Shown one piece after another: positions 11,500 through 55,046 of a stretch of DNA of 64,000 bases (positions are counted from its first letter, which is position 1; every line of letters starts with the position of its first letter). Source of the DNA: Salminus brasiliensis (taxonomy: Eukaryota > Chordata > Actinopteri > Characiformes > Bryconidae). The translations under genes were made by a program, and so were the position numbers. The notes beneath the pieces were generated by a model. That model made no database searches and was not told where the DNA came from. It saw only the letters and a program-made list of their open reading frames with translations. Location of the stretch: NCBI RefSeq assembly GCF_030463535.1, contig NC_132893.1:27340782-27404781 (forward strand), read 5' to 3'.

Positions 11500-11905
11500 T
11501 AACCTGAAGGATTCTTCTGTAGGTGGAGGAATATCAGGAATCTCACTCGTGGCGTTTCTGGTTCATCTGCTTTAATCCTGTGTCCTGAAGCCCCCCTTTT
11601 TTTTTACGTCATTGTTGTTATTGACCATGTGTTTGGCAGGGCAGCTCGCTTCACCATATGCCCATGTTATTCAGACAGCTGGGCACTCTTCAGGGATTTA
11701 TCTCCGTTTTCTGACTCAAAGATGGAAAATGATACGAGTGCATTCAGAGACTCACTCAGACTTAAATAAATAGGAAGAGGATTTAAACGATTGCCATTAA
11801 AAGGTCCTGGATCTCCTTGATATTTAGATTTTCTGTTCTCACAGTTCTCTCTCTTTCTTTGTGCCTTCCTCTCCTTCTTCTTCCAGCCAGGTCATGTCAT
11901 TGAAG

Positions 11906-12526
11906 ATGGAGATGGATGTCAGTGGAGTGTCCAGGACGCCCATATCCATTTTGCCTGCTGCCGAGGTCAAAGCTACGCTGAAGCCGGAGGCAGACAAACC
12001 GCGCTGCTCCAGCACCCCTTGCTCGCCCATCAAAAGTACTGTTTCGGGATACCAGATCCTCCACATGAACTCCAACTATCTGGTGGGCTTCACCACCGGC
12101 GAGGAGCTCCTCAAACTGGCCCACAAGTGGTCTGGTCCTGAGAAGAGCAACACAGAGGCCTTGCCCAGTCCTGTCAAAAAGCCTGTGGATCTGGGCCTGC
12201 ACCGCGCCTCGCGGATTTACAAAGCCAAAAGCCGCTTCTACCAGCCCTACGACATCCCCGCCGTCAACGGGCGCAGGAGGAGGCGCATGCCCAGCTCCAG
12301 CGACTCCTGCTTCAGGTCGCTGGCGGCCGGGGAGCCCAGCAAGGCTCTGCACGGGCCCCTGCCCCTCTGCCTGCTCAAGGGCAAGCGGGCGCACTCCAAG
12401 TCCCTGGACTACCTCAACCTGGACAAGATGAGCCTCAGGGAGCCGGCGGACACCGAGGTGCTGCAGTACCAGCTCCAGCACCTCACACTGCGGGGAGAGC
12501 GTATGTTCAGCAGGAACAAAACATGA
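11906..12526 (+). CDS. macir: macrophage immunometabolism regulator (C5orf30, UNC119-binding protein)
   Basis: Vertebrate MACIR binds UNC119 and has been linked to ciliary trafficking of lipidated cargo and to restraint of inflammatory macrophages. The whole 206-residue protein lies in this exon, the same length as human. Recognised blocks: KPRCSSTPCSP, VSGYQILHMNSNYLVGFTT, GEELLKLA, FYQPYDIPAVNGRRRRRMPS, ALHGPLPLCLLKGKRAHSKS and DTEVLQYQLQHLTLRGER. The polybasic run is intact. An acceptor (ttcttccag, 11885-11886, or ccag, 11889-11890) precedes it. I chose the ATG at 11906 because MEMDVSG aligns with the family start; an in-frame ATG at 11894 (MSLK-) would add four residues. The stop is TGA 12524-12526. 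The opposite-strand open frame of 219 codons is a shadow of this exon. Very sure. Confidence 0.97.
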   Translation: MEMDVSGVSRTPISILPAAEVKATLKPEADKPRCSSTPCSPIKSTVSGYQILHMNSNYLVGFTTGEELLKLAHKWSGPEKSNTEALPSPVKKPVDLGLHRASRIYKAKSRFYQPYDIPAVNGRRRRRMPSSSDSCFRSLAAGEPSKALHGPLPLCLLKGKRAHSKSLDYLNLDKMSLREPADTEVLQYQLQHLTLRGERMFSRNKT

Positions 12527-25698: not shown

Positions 25699-25706
25699 AT
25701 ATAAAT
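25699..25706 (+). promoter_or_regulatory. TATA box of lysozyme copy 2
   Basis: ATATAAAT 74 bases before the ATG at 25773. A GATA-type motif (gataag, 25571) lies about 128 bases further up. Confidence 0.65.
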
Positions 25707-29552: not shown

Positions 29553-29813
29553 CAACGAATAACCAACTAACCTGAGACTGGTGTGATATGTTCTGTTAAC
29601 GAGGTTCTGCTAATAGTAATGGTAATGATGTAGCAGCAGCGTGTCAGCCACATTTCTAATTGAGTTTAGGGTCATACACACTGATATACGGCTTATTTAA
29701 AGCAGTGCAAGCTCAATACATGCACAAAACACAGAGCACCTCGTTCAAAACAAGACCCCCCCCCAGTTTTGTAAGATGCAGAGCGGGAATCATGAGAAAC
29801 CATGAAAGGGAGT

Positions 29814-30015
29814 AGAGCTCTCTGCTGTTATCTGCTCCTCACTCCACAACCACCACTAATGCACCTGCAGCTTACCACCAGACACACTCTTATCTCAGAA
29901 TACTAATCAAATGCTTTCTGAGTTGTAGTTGTAGATTACATATAAAGTGTTTTATTTAATACATTATTTTATTAAGATAAAATTATTTATTTATGTCCCA
30001 CAAAGGGCAGATAAG
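29814..30015. repeat. upstream flank of lysozyme copy 3, duplicated from copy 2
   Basis: Near-identical to 25376-25576. After the shared gataag motif the two diverge: copy 3 lacks about 74 bases that copy 2 has before its TATA box. Confidence 0.85.
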
Positions 30016-30063
30016 GATTATTTACCCCCAAAATTCCAGCAATCGCAGCAGTTCCTCCAGCGG

Positions 30064-30070
30064 TATAAAT
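30064..30070 (+). promoter_or_regulatory. TATA box of lysozyme copy 3
   Basis: TATAAAT 72 bases before the ATG at 30136 and only about 54 bases after the GATAAG motif (30010). Confidence 0.65.
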
Positions 30071-30135
30071 TTCAGCAGCACTTCTAGAGATTCACACAGG
30101 AGTACATTCAGGAGTCTCCTGTATCCTGTGTCACA

Positions 30136-31121
30136 ATGAAGTTTTTGGTGCTTCTTCTGTTTGTGGGCGTGGCCAATGCCAAATATTTTACCAGATGTGA
30201 ATTGGCAAGTGTTCTGCAAGCAGCTGGAATGGACGGCTATGCGGGTGTCGGTCTGGGTGACTGTGAGTTCTTCTAGAGCCATTTGAATGAATGGTTCTTT
30301 TTTCCACAGTGTTTTATTTATCCCCAGTGTTGCTTGTGGGGGAAGTTTGATGCTTTACTTTTACCCCAGAGCTACAAGTCTATGACTTTCAGCTGGAGTC
30401 TGATGGTAGAGATTCAATCTGGCTTGAATAATAATCATCTAAACTGCAAGTCTGTTTATGAAACACCACTAATCACAGTTTATGGATTTATGAATCGCTC
30501 TATTGGATGTTTAGCCTGGTTTTGCTTTATGGGCACTGCATCATTGTGGCTGTAATCAACTGTGTATTGTATTTTAATGAACGCATGTTATACTTTAATA
30601 CCTCCAGGGATGTGCTTGGCCAGTGCTGCGTCCAGCTACAACACTCAGGCCATCAACCACAACTCTGACGGCTCCACTAACTACGGCATTTTCCAGATCA
30701 AAGATCGTCTGTGGTGTTCCAATGACCAGTTCCCCAGCTACAACGGCTGTCGGATCTCCTGCAGCCGTGAGAATGACAGCCATGATTTAAAGCATCATAC
30801 AAACATGGTGCCGCAGACATATAGAAAATAACAGCCTGGAAGAAGTCTACAAAATCTTGAGTGTTTTAACACTTGTCTTTCTCAAACAGAGCTTTTGATT
30901 GATGACATCTCTGCTGACATTGCGTGTGCCAAGGTCATTGCCAACCAGCAGGGCATTTTATTTTGGTAAGACTAAAGCATTAAGGTTTTCAATAGACTCG
31001 TTTAATAGTCGTGTCAGATACATGTCTTAACTGTTTTCAATCCGTCTCTCTCAGGCCAGGCTGGCAAGCCAACTGCGAGGCCCGCGATGTGAGCTTGTAC
31101 GTCGCAGGCTGTGAGCTTTAA
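30136..31121 (+). CDS. c-type lysozyme-like protein, copy 3 (predicted non-catalytic)
   Basis: Same architecture as its two neighbours: exons 30136-30262, 30608-30766, 30890-30965 and 31055-31121 with GT-AG borders, joining to 142 codons plus TAA with no frameshift or stop. Signal peptide MKFLVLLLFVGVANA; the mature chain starts KYFTRCELA. All eight cysteines, Trp28, Trp63 and Trp108 remain. Both catalytic acids are lost: position 35 is Ala (gcg, 30628-30630; SAASSYN) and position 52 is Asn (aac, 30679-30681; STNYGIF). Asn59 is Lys and Trp62 is Leu (IKDRLWC). Net charge is about -5. Lysozyme-fold proteins without catalysis are known (alpha-lactalbumin, some sperm lysozyme-like proteins), so a binding or structural role is plausible. 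Its promoter is also shortened. Function unknown. Confidence 0.9.
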
Positions 31122-31153: not shown

Positions 31154-31159
31154 AATAAA
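31154..31159 (+). other. polyadenylation signal of lysozyme copy 3
   Basis: AATAAA 32 bases after the stop; another AATAAA near 31270 is possible. Confidence 0.5.
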
Positions 31160-38600: not shown

Positions 38601-41600
38601 AACAGTTGCAAAAAGCACTATATAAATAAATTTGACTTGACTTGACATGGTTCTTAAAGGGACTGATAGTGGTTCCACAATGGCATCGCTCAAAGAACCC
38701 CTTGAAGCACCTTTATTTCTAAGAGCGTATGTGAAACTGCCTTCTGTGCCTACTCTCACCACTTTACATAAAATGCCTTCTTTCCTTGTTACTTGATTAG
38801 TAGTTTATTAGTAGAATTAGTCATATGACAATAAGCAAAATTAGCTAAAATGAGAAATAAAATGAAGTTTAAGATAAATTAAGATAAAATTAATGGCAAT
38901 AGTATATCATCACTGTCGAAAAACCTTACATTTACATTTAAGGCATCTTTTCCAGAGCGACTTACAAAAATGCTTCTCTGTTCACTCAGAAAATACCCTT
39001 AGCTAGTTTGTATCAGCTTATATTAGATGCTACTAAAAACAAAAGTCAGTGTGGAGACCACTATACTCGGCACTGCACTTCACCCAAGTACTCTTGGTAG
39101 AAGTGGGTCTTCAGTTCCCTTTTTTTCATTTTTTGACATAAATTGAATTTGTTCTTTACATCGTGTTAAAGTTGTCCTCATGATTTTGAAATTTACATAG
39201 TAAAAATCATGATGAATGGACCAATCAAAATGCTCCAAAATGACTTGAAATAAAATCTTTAGTTATTAAGGTTTTTTCCTTCTCCTTTAAAGTTGCCATT
39301 TTGGAGATGTGAAGTTTTTGTGTGACAGCAACAATATCTTACTATGCCCTAATTGGCTATTACGCTTTGTGAAAGGTCACTTGTGATGTTTCTACTGGTC
39401 ACAGTGTGTCATTCAGGTTATCACAAAGCTGTTAAAAACAAGCTCAACTGGAACCTTTTTTAAAGATGGCTCTGTGAAAATACACAATGTGTTTGAATGT
39501 ATGTTCGTGTTTATGTTTGTGTTTACTTACTTGCAACAGGTCGAGGACCATTGCTAAGACACTGAGCAGTTTCGCTTGGGTTGACATCATCTCCTCGATA
39601 AATCCATGAGGCTGAGTGGAACGTCTCGGTGTAAAAACCTCTATCTTCAATAGACATGTCAACTGACCGGGTGTCTTCTGAATTCACTGTGTCTGATATG
39701 AAGATAAACAACAATGTAACAAATACTGCAAACTCTAAAACTCACAAGATGCCAGTGGAGGTGGTTTTGCTGCAGTCTAGTTATTTGCATAGGATCTTTC
39801 ATTGGCTTGTTCTGAACCAGAAGAGAGAAAAACTGGCACCATGTAGAAAATTCTTCTAGCCGCCATTCTGTCATTGTTGTGGCAGAAGTGCTTATGATAC
39901 TATTTGCTGTCTGATTGGATTTCTTCTCTGGATTGTGATCAATTGATGACTTTTCTGACTAATGTTCACCTGATTCCTCTGTGATGTTGCTAGTCATTGA
40001 ACTTCCTCCTGCAGAACTCCACTGTTTGCTCTCCTTAAACATCTTGCGTTTCTTTGCCCAATGGTCTGAAATTTCTTCTGAATCCTTGAGGGCACAATCT
40101 CCTGGGGGCTTTAGATGCTCCCGGAAGTCCAGTGATGCTATGAATGACAAAATAAATATTAATAACAAAGCTAGCATTGTGCACAGGCTCACATATTCTG
40201 AGGACAACAGTGGCCAGTAGATCTACTGGACATTACATTATATATATACAAGTATTTTGTGAAGAACTTTTAAAAATAGCCTACATTTGGGGGTAGTCTG
40301 CCGGTCAGCCATGTCTGACTGGTATGACTTTGATGTCCGACGGATACCCATGCTCGTCTGTCTGTTTGTTTGACTACAGACTCTATTTGATGCCTGTGCT
40401 TCTTCACGACTTGCTCTTCGATAATTCTCCATTCTTTTTGTTGGAGCATCTTCAGCGTGCATCTCCAGTGCATGTCCAGTGTGCATCTCCAGTGATGTCT
40501 CTGTCTGGTTTTCTGAGGGACAATATAAGGAGATGCTTTCTACTTGTGAGTGGGGGGGCTGGTGGGATTCCTCAATTTCTTGTCTTTCAACATCCAGCTG
40601 TTCTGATGGAGATGCAGAAAGTGGCTCAGACACTGCACTGCATGTTTCTGTGGCCGATGGGGATTCCTGTAGATTGTTCTGCAAAGTATCTTCACTTGTT
40701 GACACAGAGTGGTTCTGCAGACATCTCTGCTCATATCCACCTATAATGATGGTCATTACTGAGCCTCTTCGCTTCTTTTGAGCACTAACAACTTCTTGGT
40801 CTTCATACGTTTGAGGTTTGGGTCTGCTGGGGGCTCCATCACTAATGTGTTCCTCAGAGTTGCAAGGTGAAGGTGGGGTGACGTGGATGAGAAGGTTTTT
40901 CTCAAAGATGTCCTCAGCCAGAGCTACTGGACTGCTCTCCTCCATCTCAACCATCTCTTCATCAAAACCACTTTCGGTCACCTCACTCTGTTCCAGCGGG
41001 CCCGCTGAGGAGCTCCTGCGGTCAGCTCTGACCAATCGCATCAACTCACTAAACTCTGCTGGATCTCCAGGATCCTGGCCACTCTTCAGGAAGACATCCT
41101 CAGACGTCTCGTCAGACCTTGTTGGATAAAATGGGTTTTTTGTGGTGCTGTATGCCTTGATGTTATCAGGAGCATAGATAGAGCTGGAACTTGGCCTGTA
41201 GCTGCTGCTGCTTGATGACTTGCGACTCTCTCCTTCGAAAAGTCCTAATCTCTCATCGTCTAGGTAGAACCTAGTTACTCTCTCTGCTTGAGAAGGTAAC
41301 GACTGCATGAAAAATGAAGAGAGTGTGCCAGAGGAAAACGACTCTCTGCATGAAGGAATGCTTTCTTGGCCTTGGCTTGACTGATACGCCACCCCAGGAA
41401 AGGTCCTCCGCCTTTTTGTTGGCACTTCTATGTAGCCGTTAGCTTGAGTTTTGGTTTCTAAGATGGCAATGCTGTTGTTACGCATTCTCATCTTTCCTTC
41501 ATGATTTTGAATGAAGTTTTTAGTGAAAGACGACCTGCTGACTGGAGTCCTGGGGTATAAGGGTTCCTGACTTTCCAGGACATATTGACTACAACACACC

Positions 41601-43546
41601 GGTTGAAACATTCTTTCTTCCTCGTCTAAGGTAAGCTGAAACTTAGAGTCTTTGTTCCACGAGTCCTTCTGCTCTTTGAACACGTCATCATTTATCTGAC
41701 AGGATTCTACGTTCTCTGTCAAATTTTGAAGAAATTCATCACTTTCCTTGTCAGCAAACTCGAGAGGTGGAGGAATATCCCATAACGTCTCATTGCTTAA
41801 ACTCTCAGGAAGTGATAGCTGCCTCTGTGGGAGCCAGAAACCAGAAGGCGAGGAGCAGGTAGATGAACCATCCACCAGTGTGAAATCAGTGTCAGTGTAA
41901 CCTCCAGCATAGTGTCTGCAGAAGTGATCTTTGCAGCAGCTTTTGCAGCAGTCAATCTCATCTTGGCTGCCTAATGAGCTTAGATTGCAAGACATCTCTT
42001 TAACATCTGTCTTCAGTTCTGCAATGCTAACCTTATAGCTCACATTTTCACAGTGTTTGGCATTTTGCTTATAACCAGTTGTGCACTGGCTCCAGGAGAA
42101 AGGGTGGGCAGATCCTTCCTTGTTTGTTGTTTCGACTTTCTGGCTCTGAAAACAAGCCTCCGTTGCCTGTCCCTGCTCACTTCGGAGAACGAGAGTGGTC
42201 TTGAAGTCTGAGTCATCCGACTGTACCACTTCATTGATCTCAAGCCTCATATTGGAGCTCACGCACTTAACCTTGGCTGTTGTGACCGCTATCACGCTGC
42301 TGACTCTCTCTCCTGCTGCAGACTCGTGGGAGCGCTGAAATATGATTTTGGGAGCAGACCTTCCAAAATCATCAATTGTCACTGAGTGTGTGATCTTTAG
42401 ACCCTTGTCTTTATCCACTCCATCTGAAATGCTCGTTTTCATCTTTTTCTCCCCATACAAATCCCCATAACTCTCTTGTCTGAACAGATTCTCTTTGCTA
42501 GGAGTTTCGTCCTCTTTTTCCTCTTCATCCAACAAAATGTTTTCTTTACAGAAGGAGTCTGCCTCTCCTTTTTCGGCAGTATCGTCTTCTTGAACCACAT
42601 TGTCCAGCGGACTTTTGTTATGGTTTTGAAAGCTGGATGTAGAGATGCTTTCTGTGAACACATGACAAACTGAATGAGCATATGAGTATGTCAGTAGGAT
42701 GGATAAAGTACAGAAAATAAGGTACTGAGAGGCTGTTACAGAAAAAATAGCATTCTGCAAGGCTCTTCCAATTGTGGCCAGAGGTTTACATACAGTGTTC
42801 TTTTTATGTGGCATACTGGGGTACAACATACTTTAATAATAAACATCTTTAATAATCCAAATTTGGGGTCAAAATCTAAATCAGCACAGGGTTATATTTA
42901 TACATACAGGATCAAAAACACACAGCACACTTAATATTTGGTTAACAATCTCTTAGCAAGATGCATCTTGACTGGATGATTTTGGTAAACCTCAAACAAG
43001 CTTCTAGCACAATCCTGGTTAAATATTTGATCACTTTTGGCAGAATTTGTATATTTTTTTACTGGCACAGACCCGGCTTTTAAACACAGTCCACATATTC
43101 TTGATAGGGTTGAGGTCAGGACTTTGGGAAGGCCATACCAAAAGCTTGATTTTAGCCAGCTCTGTGTTTTTAGCCATGTGTGTTAGGAGTCATTGTCCTG
43201 TTGAAACACCCAGTTGTGTCCAGGTTTTAACCGACTAGCTGACGGTTTGAGGTTATGATGAAGAATTCTGAGGTAGTCCAGAATACTTAACCAACGTTGG
43301 TGTGTAGGCATGTGCCTGAACAAGTGTATTGATTTAAGGCGCCCAGAAATAGACCCTGCTAATCCTCCACCTGTCTATGTCCATGCTCAGGCTTGAAGAG
43401 GAGAGCATGGGCTGAGCGTGACTCAGACAGTCTTTACAGGATTACCATTAACGCCCTGCCCAGCAGCCAGGTATAGACCAGCACTCACGTTTACTGCTGC
43501 AGGAACTCCTCCTCCTGCGACTGTTCCTCCCCCTCCTCTTGCTCAT
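32623..43546 (-). CDS. pdzph1: PDZ and pleckstrin homology domain protein, PDZPH1-like
   Basis: Twelve coding exons on the minus strand, in order: 43489-43546, 40285-42651, 39970-40137, 39531-39692, 38143-38244, 37831-37941, 37264-37442, 36084-36241, 35138-35180, 34369-34555, 33069-33204 and 32623-32722. All have GT-AG borders and all phases close: 3771 nt, 1256 residues, TGA at 32623-32625. The ATG at 43546 opens an Arg/Ser-rich start (MSKRRGRNS). Residues about 20-915 are Ser/Glu-rich, probably disordered, with a Cys/His cluster. The PDZ domain covers about 919-1002, PH1 about 1010-1113 ([15 protein letters not shown], final W) and PH2 about 1140-1245 ([18 protein letters not shown], final RWIVAI). 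One PDZ followed by two PH domains suggests PDZPH1, a poorly studied gene that I believe survives in human only as a pseudogene on 5q21, which fits the ppip5k2-macir neighbourhood. Domains suggest a membrane-associated scaffold. The structure is sure, the name less so. Confidence 0.82.
33730..34170 (+). mobile_element. family A MITE, near full length
   Basis: Left end cactatgagggcaaaagtatt, right end gcgtttggacatacagta. Contains the whole internal order of the family, about 440 bases. Inside a pdzph1 intron. Confidence 0.8.
35467..35862 (-). mobile_element. family A MITE, near complete, reverse
   Basis: Left edge tactatatgtccaaatgtttgtggacacccc, right edge gagcaggtgtcccaatac. Inside a pdzph1 intron. 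Confidence 0.8.
36430..36745 (+). repeat. interspersed repeat rich in 'ggccccac' phrases
   Basis: Inverse counterpart of 28620-28970 (gggtcccatct, gggcccatgctt, ccatatgtggggtcaacatgga). Inside a pdzph1 intron. Confidence 0.6.
37264..38244 (-). other. PDZ domain exons of the pdzph1-like gene
   Basis: Exon 38143-38244 gives [20 protein letters not shown], with the carboxylate-binding loop in the form PWGF. Exon 37831-37941 gives [20 protein letters not shown], the usual G-D-x-(I/V)-L-x-(V/I)-N-G segment. The first bases of 37264-37442 close the domain (GPDLLTLTI), and that exon then begins PH1. Confidence 0.85.
38300..38735. mobile_element. palindromic MITE interrupted by a second repeat
   Basis: The outer arms gtgcttcaaaggttttcttgcgtgatgcc (38329 on) and ggcatcgctcaaagaaccccttgaagcac (38682 on) are inverted copies. 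Between them, about 38405-38645, lies another interspersed repeat (caaggtttcttcctccagctctgaggga ... aaagcactatataaataaatttgactt) that recurs in part at 61785-61920. Confidence 0.65.
38935..39120. mobile_element. interspersed repeat with 'ttacatttaaggcat..ccagagcgacttac'
   Basis: Shares its left end with 58985-59060 and, faintly, the last 20 bases of the window. A frequent fish dispersed repeat. Confidence 0.5.
43040..43330 (-). pseudogene. decayed Tc1/mariner-type transposase fragment
   Basis: On the minus strand, short frames recall the C-terminal part of Tc1 transposases: a segment reading FQQDND (near 43200), then a stop, and later a SPDLNPI-like segment before a stretch ending TVFKSRVCA. 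Stops and frameshifts break it. It sits in intron 1 of the pdzph1-like gene. Confidence 0.7.
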
Positions 43547-54899: not shown

Positions 54900-55046
54900 G
54901 ATGAGGGTTGGGATTAGATTTTGGGTTTAGGTTAGGGTTAGAATTAGGGTTAGGGTTTAAAGATAAGGTTAGAATTAGGGCCAGGATAAAGGTTAGAATT
55001 AGGGTTTGGGTTCAGGTTGAGGTTAGGACTAGGGCCAGTGTTAGAT
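54900..55046 (+). repeat. degenerate TTAGGG-rich (telomere-like) repeat
   Basis: About twenty loosely spaced units of the type gttaggg, attaggg and aaggtta, including ggttagggttagaattagggttaggg near 54929-54956. The short matching plus-strand frame is only this repeat translated. Confidence 0.7.

Follow-up and report, generated by a model that had tools for sequence, protein, structure and literature searches.

The third of three tandem lysozyme genes has lost both catalytic acids, while the rest of the gene is intact. Does it encode a protein with a new, non-enzymatic role, or is it a redundant copy in the first stage of decay?

Structure and active-site residues of the third lysozyme gene

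The window, that is the whole 64,000-nucleotide stretch analyzed, corresponds to positions 27340782-27404781 of contig C16 in a 1.07-Gb assembly. It contains three head-to-tail c-type lysozyme genes, L1 (21066..22169), L2 (25773..26856) and L3 (coding sequence 30136-31121), all on the plus strand. Exon lengths (127, 159, 76 and 67 nucleotides), GT-AG introns, a 142-residue product, a signal peptide and eight cysteine columns are common to the three copies. L2 is the closest paralogue of L3 (107 of 142 residues identical), and the active sister copies are located 4 to 9 kb from it. The calculated isoelectric points are 9.35 for L1, which is basic, 4.05 for L2 and 4.47 for L3, both acidic.

The reading frame of L3 is open throughout its four exons. 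Exon 1 (30136..30262) encodes the signal peptide MKFLVLLLFVGVANA and mature residues 1-27. Exon 2 (30608..30766) encodes mature residues 28-80 in the protein's own numbering and contains positions 35, 52, 59 and 62. It is followed by exon 3 (30890..30965) and by exon 4 (31055..31121), which ends in the stop codon TAA. A TATA box (TATAAAT) is found at 30064..30070 on the same strand, with an L2 counterpart at 25700, and an AATAAA motif resembling a polyadenylation signal is present 3' of the gene (31154..31159, plus strand). The first-pass annotation had described an intact gene, and this was confirmed for the eight cysteines, exon lengths, splice sites, TATA box and open frame; the signal peptide was assigned by homology and by its look. 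L3 matched the PF00062 profile over positions 1-123 of 123, with an E-value of 3e-41 and a score of 141 bits against a curated cut-off of 27. This match, the eight conserved cysteines and the four coding exons place it in the family. Moreover, 67 of 126 residues are identical to trout lysozyme, for which structures have been solved, and its fold is therefore in little doubt. For L1 the corresponding figure is 80 of 126, from which the host is taken to be a bony fish.

Active-site positions of the three copies are numbered here as in hen lysozyme (HEL). In L3, position 35 is Ala (GCG at 30628), position 52 is Asn (AAC at 30679), position 59 is Lys (AAA at 30700) and position 62 is Leu (CTG at 30709). 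These residues and coordinates agree exactly with the first-pass annotation. Among the three tandem copies L3 alone carries them, L1 and L2 having Glu35, Asp52, Asn59 and Trp62. The change from TGG to CTG at position 62 could have taken two steps, first a replacement and then a silent change, as one possible path. Active lysozymes of family GH22 are recognized by Glu35 together with Asp52, and L3 has neither. Since the general acid and the nucleophile of GH22 chemistry are both absent, L3 cannot hydrolyse peptidoglycan and the protein should be catalytically dead, as had been proposed earlier. L3 also gave the weakest of the three matches to the SLT_3 profile (0.0064, against 6.4e-8 for L1 and 2.6e-6 for L2).

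Further changes are found around the active site. A107F and V109P lie inside the sugar cleft and V99A and N113A near to it, and position 101 is Asn in the alignment. Trp63, Trp108, Asn44, Asn46 and Gln57 are retained. Altogether, 19 replacements in the mature protein are unique to L3. A sequencing or assembly artefact hiding real Glu35 and Asp52 codons would have had to produce all of them and leave the frame open throughout, and is hardly credible.

Identity tracts shared by L2 and L3

Two non-coding tracts of L3 are approximately 98% identical to L2. The first covers the 3' part of intron 1 and leads into exon 2 (30388..30607, plus strand); it agrees with L2 26035-26254 at 214 of 220 sites. 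The second is located upstream of the gene (29820..30016, plus strand) and agrees with L2 25383-25578 at 192 of 195 aligned sites. By comparison, divergence is 9-32% across the exons and the remaining non-coding parts; in the five of the latter that were measured, the counts of differing sites are 8/75, 18/149, 28/116, 31/122 and 38/119. Uninterrupted identical stretches of 115, 85 and 59 nucleotides were longer than those in any of 5000 permutations. Synonymous divergence between L2 and L3 was lowest in exon 2 (0.08); it was 0.19 in exon 1, 0.35 in exon 3 and 1.21 in exon 4. Likewise, 2 or 3 of 33 silent sites differ in exon 2, whereas exons 1, 3 and 4 together have 19 silent differences in 64 sites (p = 0.008 or 0.02, according to rounding).

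Exon 2 probably belongs with the intron-1 tract, and gene conversion between L2 and L3 is the simplest reading of these data. Alternatively, the two non-coding tracts might be shared regulatory DNA. A mobile element as their source was not supported by matches within the genome. In a search that skips very common words, an upstream query covering 29740-30135 found nothing in the genome besides L3 itself and the region upstream of L2. A second query spanned intron 1 and exon 2; its intron portion hit nothing but its own locus and L2, and L1 was matched through exon 2 alone.

In the course of events that we propose, tandem duplication gave L1, L2 and L3. A conversion between L2 and L3 would later have reset exon 2 together with the adjoining 3' end of intron 1, as suggested by the identity tracts and the low synonymous divergence. 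Exon 2 of L3 would afterwards have gained V29M, N33S, E35A, D52N, N59K, W62L and G67D. Indeed, because L1 and L2 both have Glu35 and Asp52, the catalytic loss post-dates the conversion if the converted tract covers codons 35-62. The loss is apparently quite recent: taking half of the tract differences, neutral change since the conversion is about 1.4-1.6% per lineage.

Constraint and possible selection on L3

Intactness had been taken in the first-pass annotation as a sign of a new role and not of decay. As argued, this step is unsupported. At 1.6% neutral change, drift alone would keep the frame, cysteines and splice sites of L3 since the conversion with a probability of about 0.23; if the neutral change is set to 1% or 3%, the probability becomes 0.40 or 0.06, respectively. 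The open frame is therefore a poor guide to the period after the loss. L3 might thus be in early decay, redundant beside L1, L2 and a further lysozyme c gene on contig C1, with constraint on its active site lost and no stop codon or frameshift acquired yet. We regard this as a serious possibility, somewhat short of an even chance. It is consistent with the apparent youth of the catalytic loss, and the three other genes all retain both acids. The C1 gene (C1:76197162-76198556, minus strand), which we take to be of the zebrafish Lyz kind, is 29-33% identical to L3 over two matched stretches. If this assignment is correct, the host may be an ostariophysan that carries both kinds.

Over a longer period, the data argue for constraint. 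The maximum-likelihood neutral length of the whole L3 branch was 0.12 to 0.21 per site. With an indel rate taken from the L2/L3 introns, the probability that frame, cysteines and splice sites were retained by chance over this length, and that no indels occurred, was 2e-5 to 6e-9. Neutral decay over the whole branch is very unlikely on this estimate. The dN/dS check proposed in the first-pass annotation pointed the same way: omega was 0.45 on the L3 branch, a value of 1 being disfavoured (2dlnL 4.23), and 0.40 for exons 1, 3 and 4 (2dlnL 4.49 against 1). Purifying selection on these three exons may pre-date the catalytic loss. Nevertheless, their longer-term constraint stands against decay.

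Exon 2 carries 12.5 replacement and 2.5 silent differences between L2 and L3 (NG86). Replacements were more frequent than differences in the intron tract next to exon 2 (6/220; p = 0.005 for 13/125 sites or p = 0.01 for 12/125), which goes beyond relaxation alone if the intron is neutral. They also exceeded the change in the tract and exon-2 silent sites combined (p = 0.007 to 0.03), but the excess vanished against the whole of intron 1 (p = 1.0). In the codon models, exon-2 omega was 1.65 on the L2/L3 branches versus 0.18 on the L1 branch (2dlnL 5.87). When the neutral length was fixed from the intron tract, omega for exon 2 of L3 was 5.1 (2dlnL 10.85), and when this length was doubled it was 2.6 (2dlnL 4.37). 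From the codons alone, exon-2 omega was not significantly above 1 (2dlnL 0.46 when L2 and L3 were taken together, 0.04 for L3), and the occurrence of at most 2 silent changes among 15 had a p value of 0.17. Therefore, relaxed constraint, as expected under decay, fits exon 2 unless the adjoining intron is the proper neutral measure; this tract could itself be constrained or have been converted repeatedly.

The position of the changes in the protein was also considered. Among the 21 sugar-contact positions listed in a study of lysozyme-like proteins (PMC5104373), six carry changes unique to L3, versus 13 of the 106 other positions (p = 0.06). The earlier statement that exactly the active site had been lost is too strong, as 13 of the 19 unique changes fall outside this contact set. 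With a wider cleft set, drawn from general knowledge, the proportions were 8/37 and 11/90 (p = 0.14). Where L1, L2, hen and trout all share the same residue, L3 departs from it at 5 of 10 contact sites versus 5 of 42 others (p = 0.015). This lean towards the cleft speaks against simple decay. A codon fit restricted to the 21 contact codons gave an L3 omega of 0.38, not raised, in an unstable fit (L2 omega was 20 in the same run).

According to these tests, exon-2 replacements in L2 and L3 would have outrun the adjoining intron after the conversion, with exons 1, 3 and 4 constrained, a statistical pattern that involves few sites. The case for selection is weakened by the contact-codon fit and by the more cautious rounding (12 replacements). 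All of the tests are post hoc and interdependent, they use three sequences and few sites, and the tract was picked after viewing the data; support for adaptive remodelling of L3 exon 2 over simple relaxation is weak to moderate.

Exon 2 of L2 is fast-changing as well, although its acids are kept: it shows N44D, N46D and, beside Asp52, T51I. These changes and the very low isoelectric point of L2 (4.05) perhaps mean that it has come to act at a different pH or in a different tissue.

Possible role of L3 and related lysozymes

We lean slightly towards the reading of L3 as a young, secreted, acidic, non-catalytic lysozyme paralogue with a binding role, a judgement that we hold at even chances. With acid and nucleophile lost and several sugar contacts altered, peptidoglycan hydrolysis would be abolished. 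L3 might still be antimicrobial without catalysis, by acting as a lectin for peptidoglycan or chitin or by drawing off, as a decoy, the lysozyme inhibitors that bacteria produce. The retention of Trp63, Trp108, Asn44, Asn46 and Gln57 and the location within a lysozyme cluster are consistent with this role, which we nevertheless consider improbable. Indeed, bactericidal lysozymes are cationic, whereas L3 is acidic (pI 4.47), and the catalytic cleft to which inhibitors such as Ivy and PliC bind is altered in L3. Moreover, the sugar contacts at positions 59, 62, 107 and 109 are changed and position 101 is Asn, changes that would probably weaken the binding of GlcNAc polymers. Loss of sugar binding is not certain, because homology models of other non-catalytic LYZL proteins, with a changed position 62, keep (NAG)3 binding (PMC5104373).

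The nearest parallel in kind, set beside L3 from published residues, would be SPACA3/SLLP1 (LYZL3) of mammalian sperm, a GH22 scaffold in which both acids are lost. The published substitutions are E35A and D52N in buffalo SLLP1, the same pair as in L3, and E35T and D52N in the human protein (PMC5104373). Trp63 and Trp108 are kept in both SPACA3/SLLP1 and L3, and position 62 is changed in both, to Lys in the former and to Leu in the latter. In that study, SLLP1 displayed no significant binding to chitin or arrayed glycans and bound the oocyte receptor SAS1B (PMC5104373). Unlike SPACA3/SLLP1, L3 lies in tandem with active paralogues and is 107/142 identical to L2, and its loss therefore looks independent. 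It most likely reached E35A and D52N on its own, the identity to L2 pointing to a local origin.

By analogy with SPACA3/SLLP1, L3 would most likely be a small secreted binder held together by disulphides, with a protein or some other molecule from outside the cell wall as the ligand of its remodelled cleft. Such a role is more likely than that of a cell-wall lectin. A more specific proposal is that positive selection after the conversion quickly remodelled the cleft into a new binding surface, independently reaching the substitution pair of buffalo SLLP1. This proposal is tentative, and we judge it rather unlikely as it stands. If it is true, then together with three genes on contig C15 described below, it would mean that the lysozyme fold became non-enzymatic at least twice in this fish lineage. 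A young case in a fish, with active sisters 4 to 9 kb away and a clock provided by gene conversion, would make the change from enzyme to non-enzyme watchable. It would also allow a test of whether the E35A/D52N route recurs.

Non-catalytic lysozymes are best known from mammals, where they include alpha-lactalbumin, SPACA3 and LYZL4. Alpha-lactalbumin (LALBA) is a lysozyme paralogue that turned non-enzymatic, as is proposed for L3, and the first-pass annotation had named it as a parallel of separate origin. The origin does look separate, given the tandem cluster and the closeness of L3 to the active L2; as a parallel, SPACA3/SLLP1 is the better one. In the calcium loop of alpha-lactalbumin and of calcium-binding lysozymes, acidic side chains occupy positions 85, 87, 90 and 91 (HEL numbering). 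L3 has Ile85, Asp87, Ala90 and Asp91, so that acids are absent at two of these positions, and membership of this group was rejected. In addition, it has Ala32 and not the His32 of alpha-lactalbumin.

Among fishes, a 2011 survey identified no more than a single lysozyme-like gene per genome in the bony fishes examined (PMC3141428). Atlantic cod LygF1c and LygF1d are lysozyme duplicates with active-site substitutions and low or no activity, as described in another report, which found no c-type gene in cod (PMC4914998); they resemble L3 in their altered active site and differ from it in belonging to the g-type family. Among the matches listed from the open-licence literature (titles and abstract openings, for example 20 of 2,214), we noticed no non-catalytic c-type lysozyme from a fish, which is weak evidence of absence. 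No relative of L3 was confirmed among bacterial genome contigs or viral contigs.

Within the genome itself, a family search in which 16 of 16 candidates were scored yielded seven hits with E <= 0.001, of which six lie in the cluster and one on C1. With the limit of a protein search set to E <= 10, 15 hits were obtained; the cluster accounts for 11 of them, and C1 and C15 for two each. Contig C15 carries three lysozyme-like genes within 19 kb, none of which has either catalytic acid. Read by eye against hen lysozyme, position 35 is Ala, Met or Ile and position 52 is Leu. Gene a (C15:29626019-29629941; exons of 157, 1209, 61, 51 and 67 nucleotides) encodes 514 residues with eight cysteines, Ala35 and Leu52, and matches PF00062 at 4.6e-17. 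It contains a repeat-rich insertion of 357 residues between about residues 41 and 49, and all ligand positions of its calcium loop DKLIDDNITDDI are filled. Gene b (C15:29635353-29639670) encodes 504 residues with nine cysteines, Met35 and Leu52, and its insertion of 347 residues contains 27 S-x-E motifs. Gene c (minus strand, from C15 29644997 down to about 29642960) has Ile35 and Leu52 in a partial model, in which the last exons were not found. The C15 genes may encode a hitherto undescribed kind of fish protein in the lysozyme/lactalbumin lineage. As non-catalytic genes they are stranger than L3.

The surroundings of the cluster were scanned for flanking genes. Among 10 open frames, only one scored above its cut-off: the frame at 11828-12523, upstream of the lysozymes, which matches a macir/C5orf30 homologue (UNC119_bdg, 2.1e-119). 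Another of the scanned frames matched DUF4344 below the threshold. On the minus strand, 40241-42832 is taken up by one open frame of 864 codons, counted from stop to stop, which has no Pfam or PDB match. Finally, a degenerate telomere-like repeat (AGGGTT) is found at 54904-55027, internal to the contig.
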